Below are positions 13,869 to 62,876 of a stretch of DNA of 64,000 nt, piece by piece. A program made the position numbers and the translations under genes. The DNA is from a virus. The DNA is taken from IMG/VR virus record IMGVR_UViG_3300006754_000012, positions 1 through 64,000 of that record. One strand, given 5' to 3'. The notes below the pieces were generated by a model. The model did no database searches. It was not told the origin of the DNA and saw nothing but the letters and a program-made list of their open reading frames with translations. Within the stretch, counting starts at the first letter, position 1. Every line of letters starts with the position of its first letter.

Positions 13869-14341
13869 TGCCTTTTTACGTAAGAAGAATTGAAGAAGGT
13901 GATCCTTCTGGCATTTTGAAAGTGTTTTTACCAACAGCAGTGCTTAAAGCTAAGCGAAACAACGGCCAATGGTATGTTGAAGCTAACTATAGTGGCGTAG
14001 TAAACGCATTGCGTGATAATGGTTGGCGCAAAGCAAATGATAAGCGTCAAGCCCAACTGCAAGGCCCACAAAGCTCACCAAAGCCTAAGGCAGCAGCACC
14101 TAAAGCTAAGCCACCAGTGAAAAAGGCACAGCCTAAGCCTAAGCCTAAACCAAAAGCAAAGCCAAAGGCTGCCACACCACCTGTGGAATTAAGCCTGCTT
14201 GATAGTAGTGTTAAAGTGATTGAAAAATTGCTGCGTTCTGGCGATTACGATGCTTATTTGCAGCCACTTTTAGATGCAGAAAACGCTGGCAAAACTAGAA
14301 AAAGCGTTGTCACGCTGCTTGAAGACAGGTTGAGTAAGTAA
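13868..14341 (+). CDS. Hypothetical protein with lysine-proline linker
   Basis: A 157-residue protein with an N-terminal beta-type domain (1-60, including N-G-Q-W-Y-V), a low-complexity linker of lysine, proline and alanine (about 70-105), and a short helical C-terminal domain with L-L-E-D-R-L-S. AAAGGAGG precedes its ATG. The linker resembles the one at the C-terminus of the product of 15372-15923. Such flexible tails often connect a virion-bound part to a tethered module. Function unknown; position suggests a virion or connector accessory. Confidence 0.7.
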   Translation: MPFYVRRIEEGDPSGILKVFLPTAVLKAKRNNGQWYVEANYSGVVNALRDNGWRKANDKRQAQLQGPQSSPKPKAAAPKAKPPVKKAQPKPKPKPKAKPKAATPPVELSLLDSSVKVIEKLLRSGDYDAYLQPLLDAENAGKTRKSVVTLLEDRLSK

Positions 14342-15363
14342 TGAACGTGTTGGTAACAGGAGGCTGTGGTTTTATTGGCCAGCATTTAGTTGAGCGTTTG
14401 GCCGCAAACCCCTATGTCACATCTGTATGGGTCTTAGATATCTTAGATAAGACAGCTACAGGTAAGACTCGTATTTCAGAAATTTCAAAGCTGGTCATTG
14501 GCAATGTTTGTGACCCTGACTCTGTAAACACAGCTATCGTATCGGCATATTCAAACGGGACTCCGATTGATTTAGTTATGCACTTAGCAGCCCAATCACA
14601 TGTGGACGAAAGCCTGAAAGACAGCTCAGGTACAATGTATGTGAACGCTGTTGGTACTCAGGTAATAGCGACAGCATGTTCTTATCACGAAATCCCAATG
14701 CTTTATTGTAGTACTGATGAAGTGTACGGCCCTTCAGCTATCACTGAGAATGGTGAAGTTGAAAAGAAAGGAGAAGGTGATGCCTTACTTCCAAGCAGCC
14801 CGTACAGCGCGGGGAAAGCGGCGGGCGAATTGTCGGTTCGCGCAGAAGGCAGAAGCTTTGGTTTGCAGTTTGCTATTACTAGGGGTTGTAATGCTTTCGG
14901 CCCAAATCAATTCCCCGAAAAGTTAATCCCCATTGCTTGCCAAGCACTACAATCACACAGCAAAGTCCCACTGCATGGCGGTGGCAGCCAAATTAGGCAA
15001 TGGGTTCATGTTTCCGAGTTTGTAGAAACTTTAATGGCGGTTGGCTCTAAGCTTGTAGCTGGAACCTTAATTCACGACACTTACAACATCGCAGGCCCAA
15101 CAAGCACAACAGTAAGGGAGCTTGTAGAGGGTTTAGCTCTCGTATCAGATTACCCAGAAAGCATGGAGCCTGGTGAAACCGTTGGTGATCGACCAGGCCA
15201 AGATGAGGCTTATTACGTTTGCGGCGATAGGTTTTTTAATGAGTTTGGCTGGAGGCCAAAGCGATCTATTTTAGATGAATTCGAGCTTTCAGCGCTCTTG
15301 GATTCATATAAGGATATAGAAAGCGTATATATCGCAAACTACACTGTTACACCTATAGCATAG
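14341..15363 (+). CDS. rmlB: dTDP-glucose 4,6-dehydratase-like enzyme (RmlB family)
   Basis: This 340-residue extended short-chain dehydrogenase has the NAD-binding T-G-G-C-G-F-I-G (6-13), H-L-A-A-Q-S-H-V-D (81-89), the active-site S-T-D-E-V-Y-G (124-130) and Y-S-A-G-K (Y155, K159). It also has N-A-F-G-P-N-Q-F-P-E-K-L-I-P, characteristic of RmlB. RmlB converts dTDP-glucose to dTDP-4-keto-6-deoxyglucose, the entry to rhamnose and many deoxysugars. The Thr-Asp-Glu catalytic triad is intact, so it should be active. It sits between connector genes in a late operon, near a sulfotransferase-like gene and a large glycosyltransferase. It may serve virion glycosylation, or the sugar for DNA modification encoded at 45.7 kb. 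An RmlC-like protein is at 62.3 kb. Confidence 0.82.
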   Translation: MNVLVTGGCGFIGQHLVERLAANPYVTSVWVLDILDKTATGKTRISEISKLVIGNVCDPDSVNTAIVSAYSNGTPIDLVMHLAAQSHVDESLKDSSGTMYVNAVGTQVIATACSYHEIPMLYCSTDEVYGPSAITENGEVEKKGEGDALLPSSPYSAGKAAGELSVRAEGRSFGLQFAITRGCNAFGPNQFPEKLIPIACQALQSHSKVPLHGGGSQIRQWVHVSEFVETLMAVGSKLVAGTLIHDTYNIAGPTSTTVRELVEGLALVSDYPESMEPGETVGDRPGQDEAYYVCGDRFFNEFGWRPKRSILDEFELSALLDSYKDIESVYIANYTVTPIA

Positions 15364-15371
15364 GAGAAGAC

Positions 15372-15923
15372 ATGCTTTTTTATAGAGGAAATGAATACAT
15401 TGGGGTTATCCCTGCGGGGGTGGAATTAAAAGGCCGCCTTGCAGATGGTTTGAGTATGGCAAATTGTGTAGTCAGTTTTGATGATCATAAAAAAGCTGTT
15501 TGTGTTGGGAAAATGGGTTTGCTCGAAGAAGGTAAATCCTCGTTTTATAGCGGGGAAAAATTCTTAGTGGTTTGGGGTGATAACGATAAGCAAATGGCAG
15601 AACATCTTTCTAACCGACCTAGGCGCTGCATTGTTTATGTTGGTAGTAAGCCCGCTGGGGCCACATCTGAAGCGATGCTTAAGCTTTATGATAAAGATCC
15701 ATCCCATACTGTTTACCGTTTCGATAATCCAAGCAAAGCAGTACGGGTTGTTGTCTTGTCAGATGAAGATCCAGTTGCCCAAACATACGACGGATCTAAA
15801 TGGGTAGGCTTAGTAGATAGTAAGCCAAAACCTAAAGTTGTAGCCCCAAAACCCGCCACCCCAAAGGCAACCGACGTAAAGAAAGAAGAAAAGACAAAGA
15901 AAGTCGAAAAAAAAGAAAAGTGA
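15372..15923 (+). CDS. Hypothetical protein with lysine-rich tail
   Basis: A 183-residue protein after AGGAGA. The first 140 residues are mixed alpha/beta with no motif I recognise. The last 40 residues are lysine- and proline-rich, then lysine- and glutamate-rich, similar in style to the linker of the protein at 13868. It overlaps the sulfotransferase-like gene by 4 bases. Function unknown; the sugar-gene context may be relevant. Confidence 0.7.
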   Translation: MLFYRGNEYIGVIPAGVELKGRLADGLSMANCVVSFDDHKKAVCVGKMGLLEEGKSSFYSGEKFLVVWGDNDKQMAEHLSNRPRRCIVYVGSKPAGATSEAMLKLYDKDPSHTVYRFDNPSKAVRVVVLSDEDPVAQTYDGSKWVGLVDSKPKPKVVAPKPATPKATDVKKEEKTKKVEKKEK

Positions 15924-40793: not shown

Positions 40794-41666
40794 ATGTTAT
40801 GCCTAAAAGAACTGCCAACATCTGCCGAGGGCAGATTGTGCCGAGCAGTCCCAAGAAAAGACGCAACTGGAGATATCTCATGGGATATTGATGTTTCGTT
40901 TAATATTAGGTGTGAGGAAGATGCTTACATAGCCAATGAGTATGTCCCAGGAGCGCTTCAGGCTTGGCACGCTGGTCAAGATGGGTCTAAGGGATCTGTT
41001 AAGTCTACAAGTGGTTATGATCTTGTTCACGTTATTATTGATGACGGTAATAACCAAGAAAAAATCGCGACTGGGCATAGCGATATTAGGCATTGTGTAG
41101 TCAACATAAACGGGCAAGACTCATCATTGGTTGTCCGTTTCAGATTGCACGGGCTTTTGCCTCACGCCGCAAGCGCAATGGTTTATAAGCTTGATGAAAT
41201 CATAGTAGTAAAGCTTTCTAGCCACCAGCTTTCTGTGTTTGGTAATGAAATTTCAAGCGTGTTTGAGAGTCAAATCATAGGTAAAGTTGCTTTAGTAGAA
41301 GTAGGCGAAGATCAGCATTGCGGAATAGTCACTGAAGAAACAGAAGAAAGCGTTAGCCTTGATCTAATAAATGGATCATTGAAAATAGAAAGTCCTTATA
41401 AATTGCTTTCTACAGTAAATGTTATCCCTCAAGAAGGTTTTGCTTTCGATCAACTTCTCGCTTCATATAAAGAAGCAATGGTTAGTATTGGCCGTGATGC
41501 TAGTTGGCATGATTTGATCGAGTCAATGGGGCAAATGTATGCAAGCAACCAATTAGAGGCCAAGGCTTCTGACTACTCTGATGATTTTGCATTTGAGTTA
41601 AATGGTAACGTAATCAAGAACGCAATTTCATTGTGCTCAGAAAGAGAAAGCGAAAATGCCATATAA
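40794..41666 (+). CDS. Hypothetical protein
   Basis: A 290-residue acidic protein after AGGAGAAAG. The first half shows alternating strands (D-I-D-V-S-F-N-I, V-V-R-F-R-L-H-G), possibly a beta-sandwich; the C-terminal third is helical. No catalytic motif is visible. It overlaps the next gene by 11 bases and begins the run that leads into the modification cassette. Function unknown. Confidence 0.7.
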   Translation: MLCLKELPTSAEGRLCRAVPRKDATGDISWDIDVSFNIRCEEDAYIANEYVPGALQAWHAGQDGSKGSVKSTSGYDLVHVIIDDGNNQEKIATGHSDIRHCVVNINGQDSSLVVRFRLHGLLPHAASAMVYKLDEIIVVKLSSHQLSVFGNEISSVFESQIIGKVALVEVGEDQHCGIVTEETEESVSLDLINGSLKIESPYKLLSTVNVIPQEGFAFDQLLASYKEAMVSIGRDASWHDLIESMGQMYASNQLEAKASDYSDDFAFELNGNVIKNAISLCSERESENAI

Positions 41667-41916
41667 AATAACTAAAGATATGATCTTTCATAAAAACTGC
41701 TCAGCCAGTGAAAAAATAACTTTGGCAAAAGGTACTATCGTAAAAGAAGCGCACTGGTCTGAAATGGGTGCTGAAGATTTAGCCGCTTTTAGAAAGCTTG
41801 TTAAAAGGCACCAAGCAAAGCACCCAAATGAGAGAATAGGGTTTTTCCATTACGATGGAAGAATACGATCCGCTGTCTTTAATAAAGGTTTAAGAAGAGC
41901 CAGGGGGTTGTTCTAA
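41656..41916 (+). CDS. Small basic hypothetical protein
   Basis: An 86-residue basic protein overlapping its neighbours at both ends (11 bases before, TAATG after). It has F-R-K-L-V-K-R-H-Q-A-K-H and a C-terminal R-R-A-R-G-L-F, so it may contact nucleic acid. Family not recognised. Confidence 0.6.
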   Translation: MPYKITKDMIFHKNCSASEKITLAKGTIVKEAHWSEMGAEDLAAFRKLVKRHQAKHPNERIGFFHYDGRIRSAVFNKGLRRARGLF

Positions 41917-42194
41917 TGGAAGATAGAATGACTGTTCATTTTATGTCTCTTGAAGACCCTAAAAGGTCTTTACAAGATCCAGCATTAGCGTCCCTTTTGG
42001 AAAAGGGGTGGGTCATTGTCTCACATTTTGTTGTAGAGCGATCAGGTTCTCCAGAAATTGCCTTTGTGCTATCCCCACCTGAATATTCAAATCAGGTCGC
42101 GAAGCTTACCGCGAAATTGGTTATGTTCGGTACGATTGGCGGTGTTTTTATTGGTTCTATAGCCTCTGCTCTTTTTTTAAACTTCCTACAGTGA
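41916..42194 (+). CDS. Small protein with C-terminal membrane helix
   Basis: A 92-residue protein coupled to the gene before it (TAATG). Residues 1-65 are soluble; a hydrophobic segment (V-M-F-G-T-I-G-G-V-F-I-G-S-I-A, about 68-90) ends the protein as a tail anchor. It ends 7 bases before the ParB-like gene. Function unknown. Confidence 0.6.
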   Translation: MEDRMTVHFMSLEDPKRSLQDPALASLLEKGWVIVSHFVVERSGSPEIAFVLSPPEYSNQVAKLTAKLVMFGTIGGVFIGSIASALFLNFLQ

Positions 42195-42201
42195 GTAAAT
42201 A

Positions 42202-42867
42202 ATGAATGTACAAAATGTTTCGATCAAAAAACTTGTCCCTGATAACGCTAACCCCCGTGTCCATGATGAAAAAAACCTATCTGCAATCAGAGCTTCATTA
42301 GAGGCTCATGGCCAAGTGGAACCATTAGTTGTCCAAGCCAACACCATGAAAGTAATTGGCGGAAATGGTCGCCTTAGCGTAATGAAAAAACTAGGGGAAA
42401 CACACGTAGATGTTGTCCTTTTAGATGTATCTGATGAGGATGCTCGTAAATTATCAATCTCATTAAACCGTAGTGGTGAGTTGGCAGGCTGGGACGAGCA
42501 AGTATTGTCTCAACATATCCAAGCACTATCTCAGCTTGGCGATGAGTTTGATCCTATTTCCCTTGGCTTTTCTGGTGAAGAGCTTGAAGGTTTACTTGCA
42601 CAATTCGATACAGATATGGATACTCTTGGTTTAGCTCCCCCTGAAGAAAGCTATGTTGGCCAAGGCAGCCCAGAAATCCCAGAAGGAGCCGAACCTAAAG
42701 CAATGCCTAATAGTAGTGTAAGAATGGTTCAGTTATTCTTGAACGAAGAAACTGCACCTATCTTCCAAATGTGGGTAAACACTCTTGCTAAAAAGCACGA
42801 TACGGACAACATTACAGATACCGTTTATAAAACAATTCAAGAAGCAGCAGAAGATTTTGCAAAATGA
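42202..42867 (+). CDS. ParB-fold protein, first of two
   Basis: A 221-residue protein opening with a ParB/Srx-type domain: N-P-R (17-19), an A-I-R-A-S-L-E-A-H-G-Q helix, P-L-V-V and the core G-G-N-G-R (53-57), then L-N-R-S-G-E-L-A-G-W-D (88-98). Domains of this fold include CTP-dependent DNA-binding ParB and some nucleases, and are often fused or adjacent to phage DNA modification enzymes. The C-terminal half is acidic, then helical. It overlaps the TET/JBP gene by 4 bases. It may bring the modification enzymes to DNA. Whether it binds nucleotides is not known. Confidence 0.75.
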   Translation: MNVQNVSIKKLVPDNANPRVHDEKNLSAIRASLEAHGQVEPLVVQANTMKVIGGNGRLSVMKKLGETHVDVVLLDVSDEDARKLSISLNRSGELAGWDEQVLSQHIQALSQLGDEFDPISLGFSGEELEGLLAQFDTDMDTLGLAPPEESYVGQGSPEIPEGAEPKAMPNSSVRMVQLFLNEETAPIFQMWVNTLAKKHDTDNITDTVYKTIQEAAEDFAK

Positions 42868-43742
42868 GAATTGTTGTACGCTCTAAAGTCCCCGAAAAAC
42901 AAATTAGGCCGTGGAAGGGTAAGCACCCACCAAAAGAGCATTACTCTTTTATGCTTACTGAGTCATGTGATGTTTATGCTCCAGACGGTACTCTTATTGT
43001 TGGGTACCGAAGAGGTGCCATATCTGAAAAAGCACTAGAAGAATCATACCCCACCTACCATTACATGAAGCGTTTTAAGAGCGATAATCGCGGGGTGTAC
43101 GCTGGCGAAACTCGCGTACCTAATGTTCGGCCTGACGGCACTGTTTCAAGACAAACACGCACAAGCAATGTCTCTAGTTGTGTAGCTGGGTTCTTTGAAG
43201 CACAGGGCGGGAGGCACCCTTTCTGTCGCCAAACAGCGTTCTTACAGCACCACCCAGAAAAATGGGAGGCCATACAGCCTTGCTTAAAAGAAGTTGCTAA
43301 TGTTTTTAAAGACGTAGCGCCAAGTAAATATGAAGACCAAATGACTTATGTGGAAAAAGCACACCCCGCTTGGATTATTCCTGGGACACCATTTACAACG
43401 CTTACAGTCAATAATTGTGTCCCTTCTGCTTACCACCAAGACGGTGGCGATCTTAAAGATGGGATGGGCTGCTTGTTATGCTTTCGGAGAGGAGAGTACA
43501 GCGGTTTTGAATTGGTAGTCCCAGAGTATAGGTTTGCTGTAGATATGAGGCATGGGGATGTGCTTGTTTTCAACCCATGCGTTTGGCATGGAAATGTGCC
43601 CCCTTATGCTGCGGTAGGTGAAGAAAAGGTCGATTGGGAACGCATCACAGTCGTCCATTATTACAGGGAGGGGATACTCGGCTGTGATTCGCCAATGGGA
43701 GAATTAGAAAAAGCTAAAGAACGAGGCAAATTAAATGAGTAA
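42864..43742 (+). CDS. TET/JBP-family 2-oxoglutarate-dependent dioxygenase
   Basis: This 292-residue protein has the iron and 2-oxoglutarate site of the TET/JBP family (PF12851). The metal ligands are H191 and D193 (Y-H-Q-D-G-G-D) and H242 (W-H-G-N); R260 (E-R-I-T-V-V-H-Y) is the likely 2-oxoglutarate arginine. Before it comes C-R-Q-T-A-F (121-126) and an S-S-C-V-A-G-F-F-E segment, and G-T-P-F-T-T-L-T-V-N (174-183). The distal part has H-G-D-V-L-V-F, as in JBP. TET oxidises 5-methylcytosine and JBP oxidises thymine in DNA. The gene is coupled at both ends to ParB-like genes, and a TAGT-like glycosyltransferase follows. Its substrate base is not visible in the sequence. Confidence 0.78.
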   Translation: MRIVVRSKVPEKQIRPWKGKHPPKEHYSFMLTESCDVYAPDGTLIVGYRRGAISEKALEESYPTYHYMKRFKSDNRGVYAGETRVPNVRPDGTVSRQTRTSNVSSCVAGFFEAQGGRHPFCRQTAFLQHHPEKWEAIQPCLKEVANVFKDVAPSKYEDQMTYVEKAHPAWIIPGTPFTTLTVNNCVPSAYHQDGGDLKDGMGCLLCFRRGEYSGFELVVPEYRFAVDMRHGDVLVFNPCVWHGNVPPYAAVGEEKVDWERITVVHYYREGILGCDSPMGELEKAKERGKLNE

Positions 43743-44415
43743 GACTAAAGTATTAGCAGCCGCCGAATGGTTACCGTTAGATCAATTTTTTGATTGGGAT
43801 AGGAACCCAAGAGACAATGCCGAAGCAATTCCCGCTATTGCAGAATCAATTAAACGATTTGGATTCGTATCACCAATTGTGGTTTGGGAAGGCAAAAATC
43901 GGCTGGTAGCTGGCCACACCCGAATGGCGGCGCTTAAATTCCTTTTAGAAAAGAACCCAGAATTTACCCCCCCTTTCGCTCCAGGCCCAGGACTAATACC
44001 AGTAAGGCAGCACCCATTTAAAAATGAAGAAGATGCTAATGCGTATGCCATTGCTGACAACAAATTAGCTGAAGCTGCAAATTGGGATTCAGAAATACTT
44101 GTTGAGCTTCTTCAAGAGCTAGAAGCTAGCAGGAATGTAGACCTAACTACATTGGGTTGGAGTAATGATGAGTTTGATGATCTAATTGAAAATTTAGATA
44201 TGCCAAGTGGTTTATTTGAGGGCCTTGATCTTGATCCAGATAAACTAGAGCGCATTGATGGCGTTTTAGACGATAGGGCTAAAACAATAGTATTGGTCTA
44301 CACTTGCGATAAAGAGGCACAAGCAATCAAAACTCGCCTGAATATAGATGATGAATATAATTTAGAACATAAAAAAATGTTCCCAGTTAGGGATCTGGGC
44401 TGGGCAGAATTATGA
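43735..44415 (+). CDS. ParB-fold protein, second of two
   Basis: A 226-residue protein with a ParB/Srx-type N-terminal domain: N-P-R-D (24-27), a helix with A-I-A-E-S-I-K-R-F-G-F, P-I-V-V and A-G-H-T-R (59-63), then A-D-N-K-L-A-E-A-A-N-W-D. The last 60 residues form a separate alpha/beta module with D-D-R-A-K-T-I-V-L-V-Y. It overlaps the dioxygenase by 8 bases and the radical SAM gene by 4. The similar domain order to the gene at 42202 suggests an old duplication, with divergence. A DNA-targeting role is proposed. Confidence 0.75.
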   Translation: MSKTKVLAAAEWLPLDQFFDWDRNPRDNAEAIPAIAESIKRFGFVSPIVVWEGKNRLVAGHTRMAALKFLLEKNPEFTPPFAPGPGLIPVRQHPFKNEEDANAYAIADNKLAEAANWDSEILVELLQELEASRNVDLTTLGWSNDEFDDLIENLDMPSGLFEGLDLDPDKLERIDGVLDDRAKTIVLVYTCDKEAQAIKTRLNIDDEYNLEHKKMFPVRDLGWAEL

Positions 44416-45674
44416 TACCAGAACTAGATAAAGGATATTATCACTCTCCTAGGTGGAGCAATGAGGTTGCTGATTGTTCAATGCCCATGACATTTGATCA
44501 GTACAGTCTTTGTACTTGGGGGTGTTTATATTGCTTCGCTGCTTTCCAAAAAGAATGTGGGGCAAGCCGAAGAGAAGCCTATTTAGCAAATAGACCTAAA
44601 GCTGTAAATGTTAAAAGTTTTAAGAAGCATTTCTTAGATCCTGATTCCTCTCAGTTTGGGGAATATATAAAATCTAAGAAGGTAATGCAGTGGGGCGGAA
44701 TGGCAGATCCGTTCTGTACATTAGAAAAAAAACACGGTGTTGGCTTAGAAATACTTAGGTTCTTGAGAGAGTTAGACTACCCACTAACCTTTTCCACAAA
44801 GGGCACGTGGTGGGTTCGGGACGAACGGTATGCTGAATTATTTAGGAATAACCCTAAATGGACTGTAAAAGTCACCCTTATTACCGAAGATCCGTGGAAA
44901 GCTAAAATTGTAGAGCCAGGGACGCCTCCTCCTAGGGCAAGGCTAAAGCTTATTGAAGACATAGCGAATTTTAACTGTGGTGGGGCGATTCTAAGGCTTA
45001 GACCGTTTATGATAGGAATCACATCTCCTGGCCATTTAGACCTTATTAGGGAAGCCCACCAACGCGGGGCTATGTCAATGTCTACTGAGTTTTTCTGTTT
45101 AGAACAGCGTAGTAAAGGCTTAAAAGAAAAACTAAAAGTAATGTCAAGAGCCTCTGGGTTTAATTACTTATCTTTTTATAAAAAGTATAGTTACGCTCAC
45201 GGTTATTTGAGATTAAATAGAAAAGTCAAAAAACCATTTATAGATGAAATGGACGACTTGTGTAAAGAAATAGGTATGCGTTTCTATGTTTCTGACGCAC
45301 ATTTCAAAGAGCGTAGTTGTGATTCAAACTGTTGTGGCCTAGGTCAAGACCATAATGTCAGCAAAGGGCAGTTTACCGAGGCTCTTTTAAAGTGTAAGAA
45401 AACAGGGAAAGTAACTTGGTGTGACATTACATCGAATGGTGAAATGAATCATTTGAAGGGCTTCTTGTGGAGAAGAGCTTCTGGCTTCAATACACGTGGA
45501 ACAGACGCAAGAGCCAAGTTTTTAGATCATACAATGTATGACTATATGAATTGGTTGTGGAACAATCCAAATGCTGGGCAATCTCCATACAAAATGTTTG
45601 AAGGGATAATGCAACCAAATGGTACAGACAATAACGGTAATATTATTTATGTATATAATGAGGATAAAGCATGA
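44412..45674 (+). CDS. Radical SAM enzyme, SPL-like
   Basis: A 420-residue radical SAM protein. The cluster motif is C-T-W-G-C-L-Y-C (C34, C38, C41), preceded by an S-P-R-W-S-N-E segment. G-M-A-D-P-F (about 96-101), then F-S-T-K-G-T and V-R-D-E-R-Y, resemble the spore photoproduct lyase/Rv2578c group, whose members act on nucleic acids or have unknown roles. A second cysteine-rich stretch (S-C-D-S-N-C-C-G) lies near residue 300 and may hold another cluster. It overlaps both neighbours by 4 bases. In this cassette it may tailor a modified base or its sugar by radical chemistry. Substrate unknown. Confidence 0.72.
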   Translation: MIPELDKGYYHSPRWSNEVADCSMPMTFDQYSLCTWGCLYCFAAFQKECGASRREAYLANRPKAVNVKSFKKHFLDPDSSQFGEYIKSKKVMQWGGMADPFCTLEKKHGVGLEILRFLRELDYPLTFSTKGTWWVRDERYAELFRNNPKWTVKVTLITEDPWKAKIVEPGTPPPRARLKLIEDIANFNCGGAILRLRPFMIGITSPGHLDLIREAHQRGAMSMSTEFFCLEQRSKGLKEKLKVMSRASGFNYLSFYKKYSYAHGYLRLNRKVKKPFIDEMDDLCKEIGMRFYVSDAHFKERSCDSNCCGLGQDHNVSKGQFTEALLKCKKTGKVTWCDITSNGEMNHLKGFLWRRASGFNTRGTDARAKFLDHTMYDYMNWLWNNPNAGQSPYKMFEGIMQPNGTDNNGNIIYVYNEDKA

Positions 45675-46384
45675 TTAGGCGTATTGGTGGTGTGAAAGTA
45701 TTCATTGGTGTGATCTCCCATAAGAGAGCTAAAAACGTAACTAAAATGGAAGCAATGTGCGGCCCCCTTACTTGGTACGTTGGGGAGGGAGAAGTGCAGC
45801 AATATGAAATAATGGGTGCATCTAAAGTAGTAGAGTCTGGTGGTTTGTGCCGTAGCCGTAATGCAATCTTAGATGATGCTTTTGCCCAAGACTTACCTGC
45901 TATTGAGCTTAGTGATGATTTGCGCAAGCTAGAGATTGCTACAAATAAGGCTGAGAAGCACGAAGCAACACTTGATGATGCAGTTAGGCTAATGTTTAAA
46001 GCTTTAGATAGTACAGGCTCTTGCATGGTAGGCGTAGCACCTACAGCTAATGCTTTCTTTTTCAACCCGAATAAGCCTGTACATACTAGTGCTTTTGTAG
46101 TTGGCGACTTTATTGCTGTGAAACCAACTAATCTCAGGTTTGATGAAGAACTGCGCCTAAAAGAAGACTATGACTACACAATCCAACACTTAATGAAGTA
46201 TGGATCTATTGCTAGGTGCAACGCAGTATTGGCTACATTCGCTCACCGTACAAACAAGGGTGGTGCTTGCGATTACCGTACAAGCGAGCTTGAACAAACG
46301 ACTATCAAGCAATTAAAAGACAAGTGGCCTGGAATGTTGAAAGATAACCCAAAGCGTAAAGATGAAATCTTGTTGGCGATCTAA
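45671..46384 (+). CDS. TET-associated glycosyltransferase (TAGT-like)
   Basis: A 237-residue glycosyltransferase with a short GT-A pattern. After a V-F-I-G-V-I-S-H-K-R opening strand comes L-C-R-S-R-N-A-I-L-D-D (S-R-N at 62-64) and then the acidic metal site E-L-S-D-D-L (81-83). Later L-K-E-D-Y-D-Y (163-169) and N-K-G-G (195-198) fit the acceptor half. This order (aRN, DD, ED-D, GG) is that described for TET/JBP-associated glycosyltransferases of phages. They add sugar to hydroxymethyl-pyrimidines in DNA. It lies two genes downstream of the dioxygenase in the same tightly coupled operon. Identity rests on motif order and context. Confidence 0.65.
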   Translation: MIRRIGGVKVFIGVISHKRAKNVTKMEAMCGPLTWYVGEGEVQQYEIMGASKVVESGGLCRSRNAILDDAFAQDLPAIELSDDLRKLEIATNKAEKHEATLDDAVRLMFKALDSTGSCMVGVAPTANAFFFNPNKPVHTSAFVVGDFIAVKPTNLRFDEELRLKEDYDYTIQHLMKYGSIARCNAVLATFAHRTNKGGACDYRTSELEQTTIKQLKDKWPGMLKDNPKRKDEILLAI

Positions 46385-47421
46385 TGGGGTTTCTAAAAAA
46401 AAAGCAAATAGGGAAAGGTAAAGGTGAGGGGTTACATGCGCCTTGGTCTGTACAATTAGAGCTTACAGAAGGGTGTAATAGGCTTTGTTCTTTTTGTGGC
46501 CTAAATGGTATTAGAGACAAATTGGGTATGCCATATAACTATATGTCAGTCCACTTAGCTAAAAAGATAGCATTACAATTAAGAGAGCTTTGCCCTAAAG
46601 CTAGGGTAGAGTTTGCAATGCATGGGGAGCCTACACTAAACCCAAACTGGGAAGAGATTATTGGGATCTTTAGGCAATACCTACCAAGCACACAGTTTCA
46701 ATTGACTACCAATGGGCGCACATGGATGCGTTCAAAAAAACATGAAAATGCAGTAGAGGCATACGCTGTACGCGCTTTTGAAGCAGGTATTGACATAATA
46801 ATCTTAGATACATACGAACCAGAAAGATCCAAACTCCAAGAAATGGCTAAATCCTGCAATAGATTTGAGGTAATGGACTTTTATGACGATTGTATTCCTG
46901 CTGGAATTTCCCCCTACTATAATTATCACCGAAAGAAAACGGGCCTAATGATAGTTATGGACGACATAGGGATCAGGTCTGGAGAAAGTGGTTCACGCAC
47001 CTTAATGAACCATGCTGGAAATGCTTCTGACCAACCAGTACCTGAACAACCGTACAGTAGGTCTTGTACCCAACCTTTTAGGGAAATCACTGTTTGCTAT
47101 GGTGGTAATGTAAACATCTGTTGTATGGATTGGGGGCACGAATATACTTGTGGAAATGTTGGTGAAAGGAGCCTAAAACAAATTTGGTGGGGGCCAGAGT
47201 TTACTGCTGCACGTAGGTTCTTACAAAAAAAAGAACGTGGCTTTAGTCCCTGTGACCGTTGTAATGCTGGCAGTGGGACAAGGGCAGGCCTTTTGCCTAA
47301 ATTAGTAAGTCCAAATTTAAATGATTTAGAGGTAATTAAATCTGTACACGCAAAGCCACAACAGAACAAACTCAAACGAAAACTTTGGCCATCAATAAAA
47401 AAGACAGCAAGTAATGATTGA
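46384..47421 (+). CDS. Radical SAM enzyme with SPASM domain
   Basis: A 345-residue protein. The radical SAM motif is G-C-N-R-L-C-S-F-C (C31, C35, C38), with the later F-A-M-H-G-E-P-T-L-N-P segment for SAM binding. The C-terminal part has cysteines in the SPASM pattern: C-T-Q-P, then I-C-C-M-D-W, C-G-N-V and C-D-R-C, which would hold extra iron-sulfur clusters. SPASM enzymes modify peptides or sugars and link to other substrates. The ATG overlaps the previous stop (TAATG). The close coupling to TAGT and dioxygenase suggests a role in base or sugar tailoring. Substrate unknown. Confidence 0.75.
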   Translation: MGFLKKKQIGKGKGEGLHAPWSVQLELTEGCNRLCSFCGLNGIRDKLGMPYNYMSVHLAKKIALQLRELCPKARVEFAMHGEPTLNPNWEEIIGIFRQYLPSTQFQLTTNGRTWMRSKKHENAVEAYAVRAFEAGIDIIILDTYEPERSKLQEMAKSCNRFEVMDFYDDCIPAGISPYYNYHRKKTGLMIVMDDIGIRSGESGSRTLMNHAGNASDQPVPEQPYSRSCTQPFREITVCYGGNVNICCMDWGHEYTCGNVGERSLKQIWWGPEFTAARRFLQKKERGFSPCDRCNAGSGTRAGLLPKLVSPNLNDLEVIKSVHAKPQQNKLKRKLWPSIKKTASND

Positions 47422-47755
47422 TACTAAGCACGCGCCGTGGGGATCAACACTTATTTGGGCAAATGTTCCTGGGAAATATACTGGGAAGATTATGCGTATA
47501 GAAAGTGGCCAAAGAATGTCATTACAGTTTCACCAATACAAGGAAGAAACAGTAATAGTCTTATACGGAACAATGGTTTTCGAGAAAAACAATGTGACTT
47601 ATGAATTAAGCCCAGGAATGTATGCTCACATACCCCCTGGAACACCGCACAGAATGGGGGCTATTGACAATGGTGACTTTGTTATTATCGCCGAAGTAAG
47701 CACGTTTGATGATGGTGATATTATTAGGCTTGAGGATGATTACGGGCGAACTTAA
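47414..47755 (+). CDS. Cupin, phosphomannose isomerase type II-like
   Basis: A 113-residue single-domain cupin. It has G-K-I-M-R-I near the start, then Q-F-H-Q-Y-K-E-E-T (metal-site H and E), L-Y-G-T-M, and I-P-P-G-T-P-H-R-M, and it ends R-L-E-D-D-Y-G-R. This order is that of the cupin part of type II phosphomannose isomerase/GDP-mannose pyrophosphorylase. Such domains interconvert or bind sugar phosphates. It overlaps the upstream radical SAM gene by 8 bases and the convergent primase-like gene by 32. It may prepare a sugar for the DNA glycosyltransferase. Confidence 0.7.
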   Translation: MIDTKHAPWGSTLIWANVPGKYTGKIMRIESGQRMSLQFHQYKEETVIVLYGTMVFEKNNVTYELSPGMYAHIPPGTPHRMGAIDNGDFVIIAEVSTFDDGDIIRLEDDYGRT

Positions 47756-49319
47756 TCCTATCGCATTGTGTGCTTAGCAATTTAGACCTGAACACATTTC
47801 CAGTAGGTAGCAGCCTCCATCCTGGCCTCCTACCAAACCTACCCGCCGCAAAACAAGCCATGTCTACTTTTCCACCAACGCATCCAATATTATGAGCGTT
47901 ACCAATAAGTTTAGCGCCTAAGCTAGAGTACCAGTTACGAACCCCCATATTGGCAAACCAAGCTTCTGGATTAAACCTTACTTCCCTAAGCTCAACCCAT
48001 ATTTGTAAACCAGTCGGGCCAGTTTGGACAATAGCGCAACGCCCACTACATTCATCGTCGGATTTAATCGCAGCTTCAATATCCTTGATCATTGGGGAAA
48101 GGTTTGTTTCCAAACCGCAGATATTGTCAATATCAAATAGTACCCACGACTGGCGTGAAGCAGCCCATTTATAAGGGCGCTTACCAAAGTGTGTTTCTTT
48201 CCACTCTGTAGGCTTCATTTGAGAAACGGAGCATAGTGATGTTGGGAGTATGTGCTTTTGTCCTTGGCTTATATCTGGGCAGTATAACTGTTGGACGGTA
48301 CGCGCAGCGTCAGTAGGTTTAGCGCCTTTACTACGAGTTTCTGACCATTTTAGGATCTGTAGCGGCCCATTACGGAGTTTATGCCCAATACTGCGATTGG
48401 TGTGGCCTGTATTGTCGGCAATGTAGCTAAAAAGCTTAGCGCTAAGATAACTATTGGATGCTTTAACTGTAGAGACTAAACCACCTATTGGCTTAGATCC
48501 TTTACTTAGTAGGTTATTATTGTGCTGGTGGGCTGTTTTTTTAGTAGTTACGGCGGTTTGTGCGCTTGCGTGCTTCATTCTACGTGGAATAAATAGGCTG
48601 GTTTTATTGCCGCAATACTCTACTGAGTATGTTTGTTCGCAGGTTAAACACTTTGCACCGCTCTTTGCTTCAACCCCTGTTCGCCAGAGTATAAGGGAGG
48701 GTGAGTTATCTGCGTGCTTATGGGCTTTGGTGTTGGGGCAACTTACGGCGGCTGTGCGCTGGCTGTTATGCCCCTGTGCTGTTCGCAGCTTGGCTGGGGT
48801 TGCCACGGTGCCAACAAGCACTTTAGAGGCGTTCTGTGCGCCACTAAAGCGCTCAAAAAAACCATTGTGTCTGAACCTCCTGGCTACCTCTAATAGCAGT
48901 TGTTTGCTTTTAGTGGTGAAGAGAATGTGCCTACCCCACTTTTGGCCAAAATGTAGTTTCCTTATTTTAGCGCCCATTGAGGAAGCTCCAGATAAGGAAA
49001 CTTCAATCCAACCCAAATATTTTTTGATTTGTTTCCACGCTTTACCAGCGGCCCACCTAGTAACAGATGGTATTGATGATAAATATGTTGGGCAAAGCTC
49101 TAAGTACCAATACCCAGACTTAACTTCCTGTATTTGATGGGCTTTTAATTCGCCCATTACCCACAGAAGCGCTTTGCCCGCGTTGGATACCGCGCTTCTA
49201 GTGCAAACAGAAGATTTGATTGAATCAAAAGCAAACTGAAAGTCTGTATCAATACTACCTATAGCACTTGATGGCCTAACTCTAGGGTGATACAATCCGT
49301 TTGCAATTAAATCAGTCAA
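47724..49319 (-). CDS. Primase-like protein with CHC-type zinc finger
   Basis: This leftward 531-residue protein starts with a helical, winged-helix-like region (about 60-150). A zinc motif follows: C194, H200, C224 and C227 in C-P-N-T-K-A-H-K-H-A-D and C-L-T-C. This C-H-C-C order with D-N-S-P-S-L is that of primase zinc fingers. The C-terminal part resembles an archaeo-eukaryotic primase core: V-L-F-D-I-D-N (D396, D398), a T-G-P-T-G-L-Q-I-W segment where a histidine is usual, and K-V-D-M with G-R-F-G-R-R-P-G-W-R-L. A separate Toprim primase-helicase is at 55779. The gene overlaps its convergent neighbour by 32 bases. The protein is real; the primase call is tentative. Confidence 0.6.
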   Translation of the reverse strand: MTDLIANGLYHPRVRPSSAIGSIDTDFQFAFDSIKSSVCTRSAVSNAGKALLWVMGELKAHQIQEVKSGYWYLELCPTYLSSIPSVTRWAAGKAWKQIKKYLGWIEVSLSGASSMGAKIRKLHFGQKWGRHILFTTKSKQLLLEVARRFRHNGFFERFSGAQNASKVLVGTVATPAKLRTAQGHNSQRTAAVSCPNTKAHKHADNSPSLILWRTGVEAKSGAKCLTCEQTYSVEYCGNKTSLFIPRRMKHASAQTAVTTKKTAHQHNNNLLSKGSKPIGGLVSTVKASNSYLSAKLFSYIADNTGHTNRSIGHKLRNGPLQILKWSETRSKGAKPTDAARTVQQLYCPDISQGQKHILPTSLCSVSQMKPTEWKETHFGKRPYKWAASRQSWVLFDIDNICGLETNLSPMIKDIEAAIKSDDECSGRCAIVQTGPTGLQIWVELREVRFNPEAWFANMGVRNWYSSLGAKLIGNAHNIGCVGGKVDMACFAAGRFGRRPGWRLLPTGNVFRSKLLSTQCDRIKFARNHPQA

Positions 49320-59074: not shown

Positions 59075-60283
59075 ATGGGACTGACAAACTTACAGACGAG
59101 AAACCAGCTTGGGTGCGACTTGCACGCGCATGATGCGTGGCAATCGCTAACCGAGGTTAGAGAGGCGCTGAAAGGCGCACTTATCAATAGGGATAAGGAA
59201 ATAGATAGTGCCATTATGGCTCTATTGTGCAGACGGCATGTATTATTCCTTGGGCCTCCTGGTACCGCGAAAACAACAATGTTCAACTTGCTTTCAAAGG
59301 CATTTGGCTTCCAAGGTGATGAAGTATTCCGTAGGTTGATTACGGCGTTTTCTTTACCAGAAGACTTGTTTGGCCCTCTTGACTTCAAGAAGTTTGAGCA
59401 AGGTGATTATGTAAGGAAAACAGGTGGGTTCCTACCACACGCGAAGTTTGCGCTAAAGGATGAAATCTTCAAGGGTAGCGATCCTATATTGAACGCCATG
59501 CTCACGGCACTTGAGGAGCGTGAGTTTGATCAAGGCCCGAACAGGGTAAAGATGCCTCTTGAGACAGTCATTGGTTGTAGCAATGAATATCCTCAGTCAA
59601 GTATCCTTGATGCGCTTTATGATCGCTTTATGTTCCGCGAGTGGACTGATTACCTAAAGGACAGGGGCGCAAGAAAGGAATTGATGATGATGTCTCGTAA
59701 TGGGGCGAGGCCAACGGTCAATGTTACCATTAGTTCTGCTAACAGAGAGCTTCTCCAAGAAATAACTGACAGCGTAAACATCTCAGAAGATCTCATTGAG
59801 ATTATGCTTGATGTATGGGAAACACTTGAGGTCAAGCATGGCATTAGCCTTTCTGATCGTAGATGGGCGCAATGCCTCGCTGCTGTCAAAGCACATGCGG
59901 TATTGGAAGGAAGGACAGTTGCTATAGCTCGCGACTTGATGGTGCTTACCCGCGTGATGTGGAACAAGCATGATGAGCGCCCTTCGGTTTATGCGGCTGT
60001 GTCTCAGCACGCTTGCCCAGGACTGGTGAAGGTAGCCAAAGTACTGGACGGCGTGACAGGGCGCTATGCCGAGGTTGACCTAAAAGCACCAGGAGTTGAC
60101 CACCTTGGCGCTTTGCTCCAAGTAGTCCGTATGGGAACAGATGAGATTGAGCGGATAGCAGGTGCTGGTGACATTAGCGTTGATGACTACGAGTACAAGA
60201 ACGCTGAAGCAAAACTCAACTCAATGAAGAAAGAGGTTGGGCGAGCAATTGCTCGTAACACTGGGGCTTATGGGATGAAGTAG
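59075..60283 (+). CDS. MoxR-family AAA+ ATPase, RavA-like
   Basis: A 402-residue AAA+ ATPase. Walker A is G-P-P-G-T-A-K-T (60-67), Walker B K-D-E-I-F-K-G (128-134), a sensor 1 asparagine lies in G-C-S-N-E-Y (N170), and L-D-A-L-Y-D-R-F (about 178-185) holds the arginine finger. Later S-D-R-R-W (sensor 2 region) and V-L-E-G-R match RavA. MoxR ATPases act as chaperones with VWA partners to mature or insert metals into other complexes. The partner VWA gene follows. A promoter and a terminator surround it, and the ribosome binding site is TGTAGGAGGG. Presence in a phage is unusual and its target unknown. Confidence 0.85.
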   Translation: MGLTNLQTRNQLGCDLHAHDAWQSLTEVREALKGALINRDKEIDSAIMALLCRRHVLFLGPPGTAKTTMFNLLSKAFGFQGDEVFRRLITAFSLPEDLFGPLDFKKFEQGDYVRKTGGFLPHAKFALKDEIFKGSDPILNAMLTALEEREFDQGPNRVKMPLETVIGCSNEYPQSSILDALYDRFMFREWTDYLKDRGARKELMMMSRNGARPTVNVTISSANRELLQEITDSVNISEDLIEIMLDVWETLEVKHGISLSDRRWAQCLAAVKAHAVLEGRTVAIARDLMVLTRVMWNKHDERPSVYAAVSQHACPGLVKVAKVLDGVTGRYAEVDLKAPGVDHLGALLQVVRMGTDEIERIAGAGDISVDDYEYKNAEAKLNSMKKEVGRAIARNTGAYGMK

Positions 60284-60288
60284 GGTAT

Positions 60289-60320
60289 GGGGGCGAAAGC
60301 CCCGTCCCGTTTTGTTTTTT
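60289..60320 (+). terminator. Intrinsic terminator after the MoxR gene
   Basis: GGGGGC (60289-60294) pairs with GCCCC (60299-60303) around a GAAA loop, with additional base pairs below, then TTTTGTTTTTT (60310-60320). It shares the hairpin core with 58955. Confidence 0.75.
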
Positions 60321-60325
60321 ATACG

Positions 60326-60354
60326 TTGTTCTATAACAGTTTAGGCGTTATAAT
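60326..60354 (+). promoter_or_regulatory. Promoter of the conserved 21-bp family
   Basis: TTGTTC (60326-60331), 17 bases, TATAAT (60349-60354), a perfect -10 box. The core TAACAGTTTAGGCGTTATAAT aligns with the other family members. It precedes the VWA gene by about 20 bases. Confidence 0.7.
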
Positions 60355-60374
60355 ATAAGGGTAGGAGGTTGATC

Positions 60375-61898
60375 ATGGAAGGCAATGGCTGGGATCTCAG
60401 TTCACAGAATGTTGATCTTACTTTGAAGTTGGATGGATGGCTTCATTACTTGAGTGAGAGCAGGGTGGAGTCGGTGGCAGAGCTTACGAGGGAAGTAGGC
60501 ACTATGTCTAAACACTTATTGAAGAAGGCGGGTGCCGTACCAAACCTTTCCAAGGAAAGAGATAGGGTAGATACTATTAGTAAGGGAACCGCTAAAGAGG
60601 TGTTTTCAAGACTCTATTCATCTAAAGACTTGGAGCAAGTAGCAGACACAGGTTCTGGAACCGAACTTACTAAGAAGGCACACGAGATCATTTCTGGGCT
60701 GGACGAGTTTGAGTCCTTACGGCAACAAGTGAATGGAGATCCTGATTTCTGCGCTTTGTCTACAAGCAAGTTGATGAAGGCGATAAACAACGCATTGCCA
60801 GCCATGATCGAAACGATGGAAGAGAAGGCAAAGGAAGAGAGGGCAAATAAAGCTAAAGAGCTTTTGGGCCTTCCAACATCACCACCCAAGAACGATGGCG
60901 GCCCCAATGGGGAGGATAGTTTCAGGGCGGCTGTTCGTGGGGCTTGTACGGATGCGGCAGGTGAGGTTAGTGATGTGAGGTCAGCCTTGGCGGGCATTTC
61001 CCCTGGATTAGAAGCGGCCCCGCCCATGTTCGGCCAGCAAGACACAAAGCGGCTTGAGTTAGCACGCCAACTCCAGAACAATGACAGGTTAAAGAAACTA
61101 ATGATGCTTGCTGGCAGACTAAGAAGGCTTGCTGCGGCAGAACGTAAAGAAAGAGATCCAGATGGGGTTGGGGTCGTAACGGGCGTTACTCGCGGGGATG
61201 ACTTCATGCGTATGTTGCCAACAGAGATGGCGATGCTGAAAGTCCCACAGATGAGGACTTACCAGTTAGCAAAGATGGCAGAAAAGAAGATGGCCCAATA
61301 CCAAATGGAGGGCGAGAAAAAAGAAGGTAGAGGCCCCATTATTGTAATGTTAGACACAAGCGGTAGCATGACTAATGGTGATCGCGCGATGTGGGCTTCT
61401 GCGGTGGCAATGAGTTGTATATCTACAGCACGACAAGAGAAGCGGTCATGCACGATCCTTGGTTTCAACCGTAGAGTTAATTTTATCTATACTATAGATG
61501 GTGATGGTGAGGCCTATTCGTACCCAAGCTCAACAGAGCTAGACAAGACGGTGCCAGTTGAAGGCGGCGCTCTTGAAGTATCGCTTAGGATGTCTAAGCT
61601 ACAGTGTAATGGGGGCACGGACTTTGATGATCCTTTTGAAGTAGCACTTAGTTTGGATGAGGAGCATTCTACGAGGGCTGGTAGGGCAGACTTGATCATG
61701 GTCACCGATGGTGAGGCAGAAGTAGGCACTGAAACTTACCAATCGCTTGTTGATGCCAAGGAACAGACTGGCTTGAGGGTTTATGGCCTGACAGTCGGGG
61801 GTGGATCATTCAGCAAGGTAATGCACGAGGTATGCGACAACATTGTTGACATTGGCGCGTTGGCCAACGAAAAGGAGGTTGCAGGTGCTCTCCCATAG
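60375..61898 (+). CDS. VWA-domain protein, ViaA-like
   Basis: A 507-residue protein from the ATG behind GTAGGAGG. The N-terminal 310 residues are helical and charged with an unstructured segment at about 168-182. The VWA domain has a full MIDAS: D-T-S-G-S-M (327-332), T415 in G-G-T-D, and D445 in V-T-D-G-E. The R-G-P-I-I-V-M-L-D entry is as in ViaA. With the MoxR ATPase it forms a RavA-ViaA-like pair. MIDAS domains bind a metal ion and protein ligands. It has its own promoter and no terminator before the next gene (14-base overlap). Confidence 0.82.
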   Translation: MEGNGWDLSSQNVDLTLKLDGWLHYLSESRVESVAELTREVGTMSKHLLKKAGAVPNLSKERDRVDTISKGTAKEVFSRLYSSKDLEQVADTGSGTELTKKAHEIISGLDEFESLRQQVNGDPDFCALSTSKLMKAINNALPAMIETMEEKAKEERANKAKELLGLPTSPPKNDGGPNGEDSFRAAVRGACTDAAGEVSDVRSALAGISPGLEAAPPMFGQQDTKRLELARQLQNNDRLKKLMMLAGRLRRLAAAERKERDPDGVGVVTGVTRGDDFMRMLPTEMAMLKVPQMRTYQLAKMAEKKMAQYQMEGEKKEGRGPIIVMLDTSGSMTNGDRAMWASAVAMSCISTARQEKRSCTILGFNRRVNFIYTIDGDGEAYSYPSSTELDKTVPVEGGALEVSLRMSKLQCNGGTDFDDPFEVALSLDEEHSTRAGRADLIMVTDGEAEVGTETYQSLVDAKEQTGLRVYGLTVGGGSFSKVMHEVCDNIVDIGALANEKEVAGALP

Positions 61899-62295
61899 CG
61901 ACAATCGCGAGATCTCAACACAGGAAAGAATGCGGCTTATGCACGTTGTTTCCTGTGTGTCTACGCTTAGCCATTGGGAGCCGATTGGCACCTTTGTTGA
62001 GGACGTAAAGTTAGCGCTGTCAGAAGGCGCTTGTATTGCTCACAAAGATCTCGATAGGGTTGCACGGTGGGCAAGCCGTTGGGACAGCCTTGATCGGCGC
62101 TTGAGGGCCTTCTATAGCGCCTTGCTGCACGATCCTGACTACAGGTGGGCAGCAGAAGCAGCCTTGTGGTCAATCCTTAAAGGAAATGCGCCAGCAAAGA
62201 GCAATGTTTACTTCACACTAAAGAACAGGTGGTTGGAAATGTATAACGAGCCACCATCTATAGAAATAATACCAACGAGGATCATTAGGCAATGA
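61885..62295 (+). CDS. Hypothetical protein coupled to the VWA gene
   Basis: The GTG at 61885 follows AAGGAGG and overlaps the VWA stop by 14 bases, giving 136 residues. Translation is coupled. The protein is all-helical with a W-A-S-R-W-D-S-L-D-R-R-L segment. It overlaps the RmlC-like gene by 4 bases. It may be a fourth component of the module. Family not recognised. Confidence 0.65.
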   Translation: MLSHSDNREISTQERMRLMHVVSCVSTLSHWEPIGTFVEDVKLALSEGACIAHKDLDRVARWASRWDSLDRRLRAFYSALLHDPDYRWAAEAALWSILKGNAPAKSNVYFTLKNRWLEMYNEPPSIEIIPTRIIRQ

Positions 62296-62876
62296 AAGTA
62301 GATAAAGAATTATTAGACACAACAAGCCAAGCATTCCAAGATTATCTAAAAAGTCTTGGGTACGAGAGTGAGCGGTCTGTTCCAATGAAGCATAGGATTC
62401 CTATCCCAGTGGGAGACTCTCAATCAAAGTATCCGCTTAAGTGGAACGTAGATCCACGGGGTTCCCTTGTAGAGATATGGAGGAATTCATGGACCTATGG
62501 GCAAACAGGAAGCCCTGTGTCGCAAGCGTATATTAGTGTCACCAACCCAGGAGTAGTCAAAGGTTGGCATTGTCATTTGAGGCAGACCGATAGGTTTTTC
62601 TGTGTTCGCGGGAAAGTTATGCTTGTGACGTTTGATGCAAAGGGAGCTTTCTTTAGCGACAATGTTGATTTTGATTATGAAGTAACGATCATGGATTCAG
62701 ATAGGAACCCAGAGACAGTTGTTATCCCTCCTGGTGTTGTCCATGGGTGGAAAGCGCTTGGCAACGAGGAGTCTTGGGTGCTCAACATGGTGAGCCATGA
62801 GTACGACGGTACAGATGAGTGGAGGTGCGATCCGCACAGTCACGCCTTTAACTGGAACAGGAGTTTTGACGGATGA
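62292..62876 (+). CDS. RmlC-like cupin (dTDP-4-keto-sugar epimerase family)
   Basis: A 194-residue cupin. G-W-H-C-H-L-R-Q-T-D-R-F-F (96-108), R-G-K-V-M-L-V (112-118), and I-P-P-G-V-V-H-G-W near 150 match the order of RmlC-type epimerases, which invert C3 and C5 of dTDP-4-keto-6-deoxyglucose. The second active-site aspartate of RmlC is not clear. It complements the RmlB homologue at 14341. It could also be a sugar isomerase of another kind. The ATG overlaps the previous stop. Confidence 0.6.
   Translation: MKVDKELLDTTSQAFQDYLKSLGYESERSVPMKHRIPIPVGDSQSKYPLKWNVDPRGSLVEIWRNSWTYGQTGSPVSQAYISVTNPGVVKGWHCHLRQTDRFFCVRGKVMLVTFDAKGAFFSDNVDFDYEVTIMDSDRNPETVVIPPGVVHGWKALGNEESWVLNMVSHEYDGTDEWRCDPHSHAFNWNRSFDG

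Follow-up and report, generated by a model that had tools for sequence, protein, structure and literature searches.

Why should a phage that already encodes a TET/JBP dioxygenase carry, in the same operon, a radical SAM enzyme of a quite different fold, and provide each of the two with a ParB-like partner of its own? The question is raised by a 64,000-nucleotide stretch of viral DNA (positions 1 to 64,000 of IMG/VR virus record IMGVR_UViG_3300006754_000012, here called the window), in which seven plus-strand open reading frames with overlapping ends (overlaps of 4, 8, 4, 4, 1 and 8 nt) span 42202-47755. In order, these encode a first ParB (ParB1), a TET/JBP dioxygenase (TET), a second ParB (ParB2), a radical SAM enzyme with the fold of spore photoproduct lyase (SPL), a TAGT-type glycosyltransferase, a SPASM radical SAM enzyme and a small cupin. 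The parent record of 71,109 bases also carries terminase, portal, head and tape-measure genes, and is that of a tailed virus of bacteria. As a whole, the locus is best explained, with roughly even confidence, as an operon for post-replicative hypermodification of thymine in which SPL offers an alternative entry.

ParB2 and SPL are a horizontally acquired, mobile two-gene cartridge. When the window is compared with the related locus L004, DNA identity is 89-99% (about 95% on average) within the cartridge and 55-83% outside it; likewise, the synonymous divergence (dS) of ParB2 is 0.10 and that of SPL 0.21, whereas the other genes are saturated or reach at least 2.6. Since low dS and about 95% DNA identity stand amid saturated flanks, the two genes must have been exchanged recently as a pair. 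In a further relative, L003, TET adjoins TAGT without ParB2 and SPL, and the rest of the operon is intact, its five genes being 86-94% identical. Together, L003, the window and L004 offer a natural comparison of the operon with and without the cartridge. We found no published description of ParB-SPL as a cartridge or as an equivalent of TET, in a literature whose coverage was limited and did not include central papers.

These observations bear on the sequence-only reading of this DNA, which had proposed that all seven genes build one larger final modification. Such a series, in which TET and TAGT act first and SPL and SPASM then tailor the same base by radical chemistry, would suit a single transcript with overlapping gene ends, and would also suit the occurrence of SPL with the amino-acid branch and with the sugar branch alike. 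However, we consider it rather unlikely, as the cartridge is separable, has been exchanged on its own and is missing where the remaining five genes persist, and as SPL loci are generally without another known source of 5-hydroxymethyluracil (hmU) and the family holds the TET slot elsewhere.

The SPL family was found on 33 viral contigs and at about 25 closer prophage loci in genomes. Among 49 strict SPL loci, a kinase and/or ADDT gene accompanies SPL in 20 and TAGT in 12, and no locus has both branches; the profiles behind these counts, and behind those for TET below, were built in this analysis and collect top-scoring relatives, not a random sample. Besides the window and its copy L002, the only strict SPL locus with TET is L004, and when 25 records of the SPL set were searched for TET only L003 (without SPL) and L004 were positive. 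PF00303, the family of thymidylate synthase and dUMP hydroxymethylase, was not found in 25 of the 26 SPL viral records. Thus, almost no SPL locus yielded a known hmU source, and SPL occupies the TET operon slot, the order ParB-ADDT-kinase-TET recurring in 18 loci and the matching order ParB-ADDT-kinase-SPL in 10. ParB lies almost exclusively upstream of its partner (75 cases versus 1 for TET, 55 versus 1 for SPL), and in a quick ParB tree, which has some long branches, the TET or SPL partner label changes 3 times; shuffled labels gave about 10 changes, and not one of 500 shuffles came down to 3. Going by record titles, SPL elements reside mainly in strict anaerobes such as Bacteroides, Prevotella, Clostridia, Selenomonas and their kin, with a few hosts ambiguous, and TET was found in none of 22 SPL host genomes; the named hosts of TET phages belong to aerobic genera.

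Because it takes the TET slot, has no known hmU source found beside it and resides in anaerobe hosts, we infer that SPL may be an oxygen-independent activator of thymine. We tentatively propose that the ParB-linked SPL family is the counterpart of TET/JBP that works without oxygen and feeds either kinase/ADDT or TAGT, and that the present phage holds both entries, each with its own ParB; in the window, SPL might then activate thymine in DNA and lead into the same pathway as TET, which we rate at somewhat under an even chance. To our knowledge, an enzyme that activated thymine in DNA without O2 would catalyse a new reaction. HemF and HemN are a precedent for a swap between oxygen-dependent and oxygen-independent enzymes. 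Another is uridine hydroxylation by TrhO and TrhP (PMC6599085). If true, the proposal would explain how phages begin thymine modification where oxygen shortage stops TET/JBP, and it draws attention to a large uncharacterised family in which viruses of anaerobes from gut and rumen pair ParB with a radical SAM enzyme, and which appears tied to thymine modification in DNA.

Several points weigh against this proposal. Neither branch lies within the DNA covered in 17 of the 49 strict SPL loci. TET was never found in 396 Bacteroidota genomes in which it was compared with SPL, so this comparison is uninformative on oxygen, and the anaerobe pattern of SPL may itself reflect habitat or sampling bias. 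The window's phage group carries both TET and SPL, and thus SPL need not be the entry enzyme here. All reaction steps are predictions from families, folds and gene context. Moreover, gp53 of phage M6 is regarded as a late-acting isomerase. As the SPL family has a remote profile match to gp53 (94%), and M6 possesses its own thymidylate-synthase-type gene, late tailoring by SPL, as in the serial arrangement above, stays a strong rival.

The structure of the SPL protein speaks to a further alternative, namely that it repairs thymine lesions caused by UV and is encoded next to the modification genes. Its AlphaFold2 model (pLDDT 91) has spore photoproduct lyase as all six of its best PDB matches (E 6e-8 to 1e-6; TM about 0.59 on the target), the Pfam radical SAM match is weak (0.47), and neither phmmer nor a profile gave a direct sequence match in the PDB. 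An alignment of 23 sequences shows the cluster motif C34-C38-C41, of the CxxxCxxC type found in spore photoproduct lyase and COG1533-type radical SAM enzymes, as well as conserved C22, C307 and C308. The H-donor Cys is C140 in solved structures of spore photoproduct lyase; position C102 of the window protein is Cys or Asp across the family. The shared fold favours repair. The window protein is about 14% identical to spore photoproduct lyase over the fold alignment, is some 80 amino acids longer and has extra conserved Cys, and members of its family, unlike that enzyme, mostly occur in phages or prophages and follow a ParB gene. Since the NCBIfam spore photoproduct lyase equivalogs TIGR04070 and TIGR03886 give no match to it, we class the protein as SPL-fold rather than SPL proper; with the repeated linkage of the family to ParB, kinase, ADDT or TAGT, this makes repair very improbable.

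Some related observations can be added. No relatives of SPL or SPASM were found among 50,697 isolated phage records. An apparent ParB-SPL fusion in L008 was rejected, the genes being in different frames. At L018:9692-10972, a B12-binding radical SAM enzyme adjoins ParB-SPL and might provide a further tailoring step. A second, shorter ParB-radical SAM family (L159-L181; about 340 amino acids, 22-30% identical) occurs mainly in Clostridia-type genomes, with ParB immediately upstream and no kinase, ADDT or TAGT close by.

Returning to thymine hypermodification, the sequence-only reading had not chosen between dC and dT as the modified base, and the data point to dT. The window TET scores 85.1 bits against Tet_JBP (Pfam cut-off 34.9), and its iron ligands, H191 and D193 of the HxD motif and H242, are invariant together with R260 in an alignment of six diverse phage TETs. 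The phage's own record, which may be incomplete, yielded no C5-methyltransferase (PF00145). The same held for 23 of the 25 records in the SPL set (L003 and L004 among them), for each of six isolated phages that carry relatives of TET and/or TAGT, and for 49 out of another 50 records, nearly all TET-bearing. PF00303 was likewise not found in the own record or in any of 45 TET records, with the positive control, phage M6, detected; most records are fragments, which counts against leaning on any single absence, and it is the number of records that carries weight. Downstream of each of the closest TETs outside the window's phage group, those of L045, L046 and L047 (53%, 46% and 47% identity), comes a P-loop kinase resembling hmU kinases, and L047 has in addition ADDT at 1e-34. 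Across 87 TET loci, 32 have TAGT only, 40 kinase/ADDT only, 5 both and 10 neither, so that the two branches are near-exclusive (Fisher p=4e-10); when 20 of the kinase/ADDT profile matches were rechecked with Pfam, ADDT was recovered in 9 of 10 and Ploopntkinase3 in 6 of 10. Rhodococcus phage Tonitrus has a set of ParB, TET-like protein, aGPT-Pplase2 and hmU kinase from which its authors infer thymidine hypermodification (PMC11955845).

Given the searches for C5-methyltransferase and PF00303, which found almost none, the sister TETs beside hmU-type kinase and ADDT genes, and the Tonitrus set, TET most likely makes hmU from thymine, and thymine rather than cytosine is most likely the modified base. 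In base J, a TET/JBP dioxygenase hydroxylates thymine in DNA and a glycosyltransferase then adds a sugar (PMC10057400), and by analogy TAGT most likely fills this second-step role. In our scheme, ParB1 would help TET to act on DNA, TET would probably oxidise the thymine methyl to hmU, TAGT would probably put a sugar on the hydroxyl to give a base-J-like glycosylated thymine, and the product would shield phage DNA from host nucleases. An alternative is that TET acts on host-made 5-methylcytosine to give 5-hydroxymethylcytosine, which TAGT then glycosylates. Phage TETs acting on 5-methylcytosine are known. TAGT relatives in T2 and T6 work on glucosyl-hydroxymethylcytosine (PMC13216743). Nevertheless, the failure to find C5-methyltransferase in the own record and in nearly all relatives, and the company that the sister TETs keep, make this improbable. 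A tractable phage for determining the TET substrate may be Pelagibacter phage HTVC112P (L039), which is isolated, complete and 32 kb in size, and has ParB-TET followed by an FkbM methyltransferase.

The remaining three genes are consistent with a sugar branch. The TAGT score falls marginally under the Pfam cut-off of 27.5 for PF20691, which its relatives exceed; it joins these relatives at 99.9% in profile-profile comparison (hhalign), its model is GT-A-type and matches glycosyltransferases in Foldseek, and D82 and D166 are invariant. The SPASM enzyme (PF13186, 43 bits) has cluster cysteines C31, C35 and C38, and its C228, C246, C290 and C293 align with the four auxiliary-cluster cysteines of BtrN, a SPASM/twitch dehydrogenase of an aminocyclitol, that is, of a sugar-like alcohol. 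It has the same radical SAM core and twitch as BtrN, but identity is low and its substrate is presumably a DNA-linked sugar. A role in sugar tailoring is likely because SPASM is never found with the kinase/ADDT branch at TET loci (0 of 45, versus 7 of the remaining 42, p=0.005). The cupin matches TIGR01479 at 5e-9, far under the whole-protein cut-off of that model, and it accompanies TET only in the window's phage group, a point against the scheme. It is an even call whether the SPASM enzyme oxidises or rearranges the sugar and the cupin isomerises the sugar or its precursor.

Other sugar genes sit among the phage's structural genes, which would favour the view that the glycosyltransferase, SPASM enzyme and cupin modify a virion or host-surface glycan and lie near TET by accident. 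We regard this as highly unlikely, as TET and TAGT are linked in 37 of 87 TET loci and the operon genes overlap. The structural region in question, 14341-20129, holds amid head and tail genes an NDP-sugar epimerase/dehydratase, a weak sulfotransferase match and a 974-amino-acid protein with weak GT2 matches; these may possibly glycosylate the virion. An RmlC-like cupin of the dTDP-4-dehydrorhamnose 3,5-epimerase type, at 62292-62876, may serve sugar supply. In two other phages a PIG-L-type deacetylase adjoins TAGT (L013:7377-7985, an SPL phage, and L044:4762-5352, Arthrobacter phage Klevey), which suggests an amino-sugar on the base.

The operon itself is not a chance arrangement, since L002 and L004 have the genes in the same order, their proteins being 65-97% identical, and dN/dS is low (0.03-0.07 for most computable pairs; the 0.4 of ParB2 rests on few changes). 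All seven overlapping frames lie exactly where the sequence-only reading had placed them, its family labels agree with Pfam, PHROG, profile-profile and AlphaFold2/Foldseek results, and families, context and conservation give good support to its central idea of an operon that hypermodifies DNA bases by oxidation and glycosylation; the structure-based search it had suggested, run for the SPL and TAGT models, led to spore photoproduct lyase and to glycosyltransferases. ParB1 scores 28.6 bits against ParB_N, above the Pfam cut-off of 26.3, which ParB2 does not reach (15.3 bits, E 0.02). The three small genes upstream of ParB1 are close to or overlap one another and end 7 nt ahead of it; ParB-TET is preceded by orthologues of all three in L003, L004 and L045, and L047 has those of the first two. 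As they are so tightly packed and accompany ParB-TET in other phages, the transcript may begin near 40794 and probably covers them together with ParB1 onward. A promoter and terminator scan gave sites no commoner than in shuffled sequence, and no close DNA-level match to phages was found. Elsewhere in the window, at 59075-61898, the gene of a MoxR-type AAA ATPase (bpMoxR 6e-44) precedes that of a vWA-domain protein, a pair unusual for a phage.

Table 1. Features of the operon and its flanks (positions in the window).
Feature	Coordinates	Strand	Evidence
Three small genes, no known function (290, 86, 92 aa)	40794..42194	+	No Pfam family; probable transcript start
ParB1, ParB/Srx-type domain, partner of TET	42202..42867	+	PF02195 (ParB_N) 1.5e-6; tree groups with TET-adjacent ParBs
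TET/JBP Fe(II)/2-oxoglutarate dioxygenase	42864..43742	+	PF12851 (Tet_JBP) 4e-24
Exchanged ParB2-SPL cartridge, approximate extent	43708..45735		Sliding DNA identity; dS; absence from L003
ParB2, ParB-like, partner of SPL	43735..44415	+	phrog_620 3e-35; tree groups with SPL-adjacent ParBs
SPL-fold radical SAM enzyme	44412..45674	+	Foldseek top matches spore photoproduct lyase; alignment of 23 sequences
TAGT-type glycosyltransferase, GT-A-type fold	45671..46384	+	PF20691 27.4 bits; hhalign 99.9%; Foldseek glycosyltransferases
Radical SAM with SPASM/twitch, BtrN-like	46384..47421	+	PF13186, PF04055 above cut-offs; BtrN 2e-25
Small cupin like sugar-phosphate isomerase domain of GMP_PMI/MannoseP_isomer	47414..47755	+	PF07883, PF01050 above cut-offs
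Convergent 531-aa gene, outside operon, closes 3' side	47724..49319	-	Overlaps cupin 3' end on opposite strand; no Pfam family

The predicted pathway resembles known systems in part. With base J synthesis in kinetoplastids (JBP1/JBP2 and J-glucosyltransferase) it would share thymine hydroxylation by TET/JBP followed by sugar transfer, but here the genes form a phage operon, with TAGT in place of J-glucosyltransferase and with two ParBs, two radical SAM enzymes and a cupin. In the thymidine hypermodification of phages M6, ViI and Tonitrus, by hmU kinase and aGPT-Pplase/ADDT, hmU is the presumed common handle, and ParB-TET is common to the window, Tonitrus-like systems and L047; in contrast, the window has a sugar branch, and neither hmU kinase nor ADDT was found in it, nor PF00303 in its record. 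Phage systems of TET, C5-methyltransferase and glycosyltransferase were reportedly described by Iyer in 2013 and Burke in 2021, and the former is said to have included TET with TAGT in phages as known or predicted. The window is like these in its TET and TAGT-type transferase, but differs in that no C5-methyltransferase was found in its record and in the addition of ParB and SPL/SPASM.

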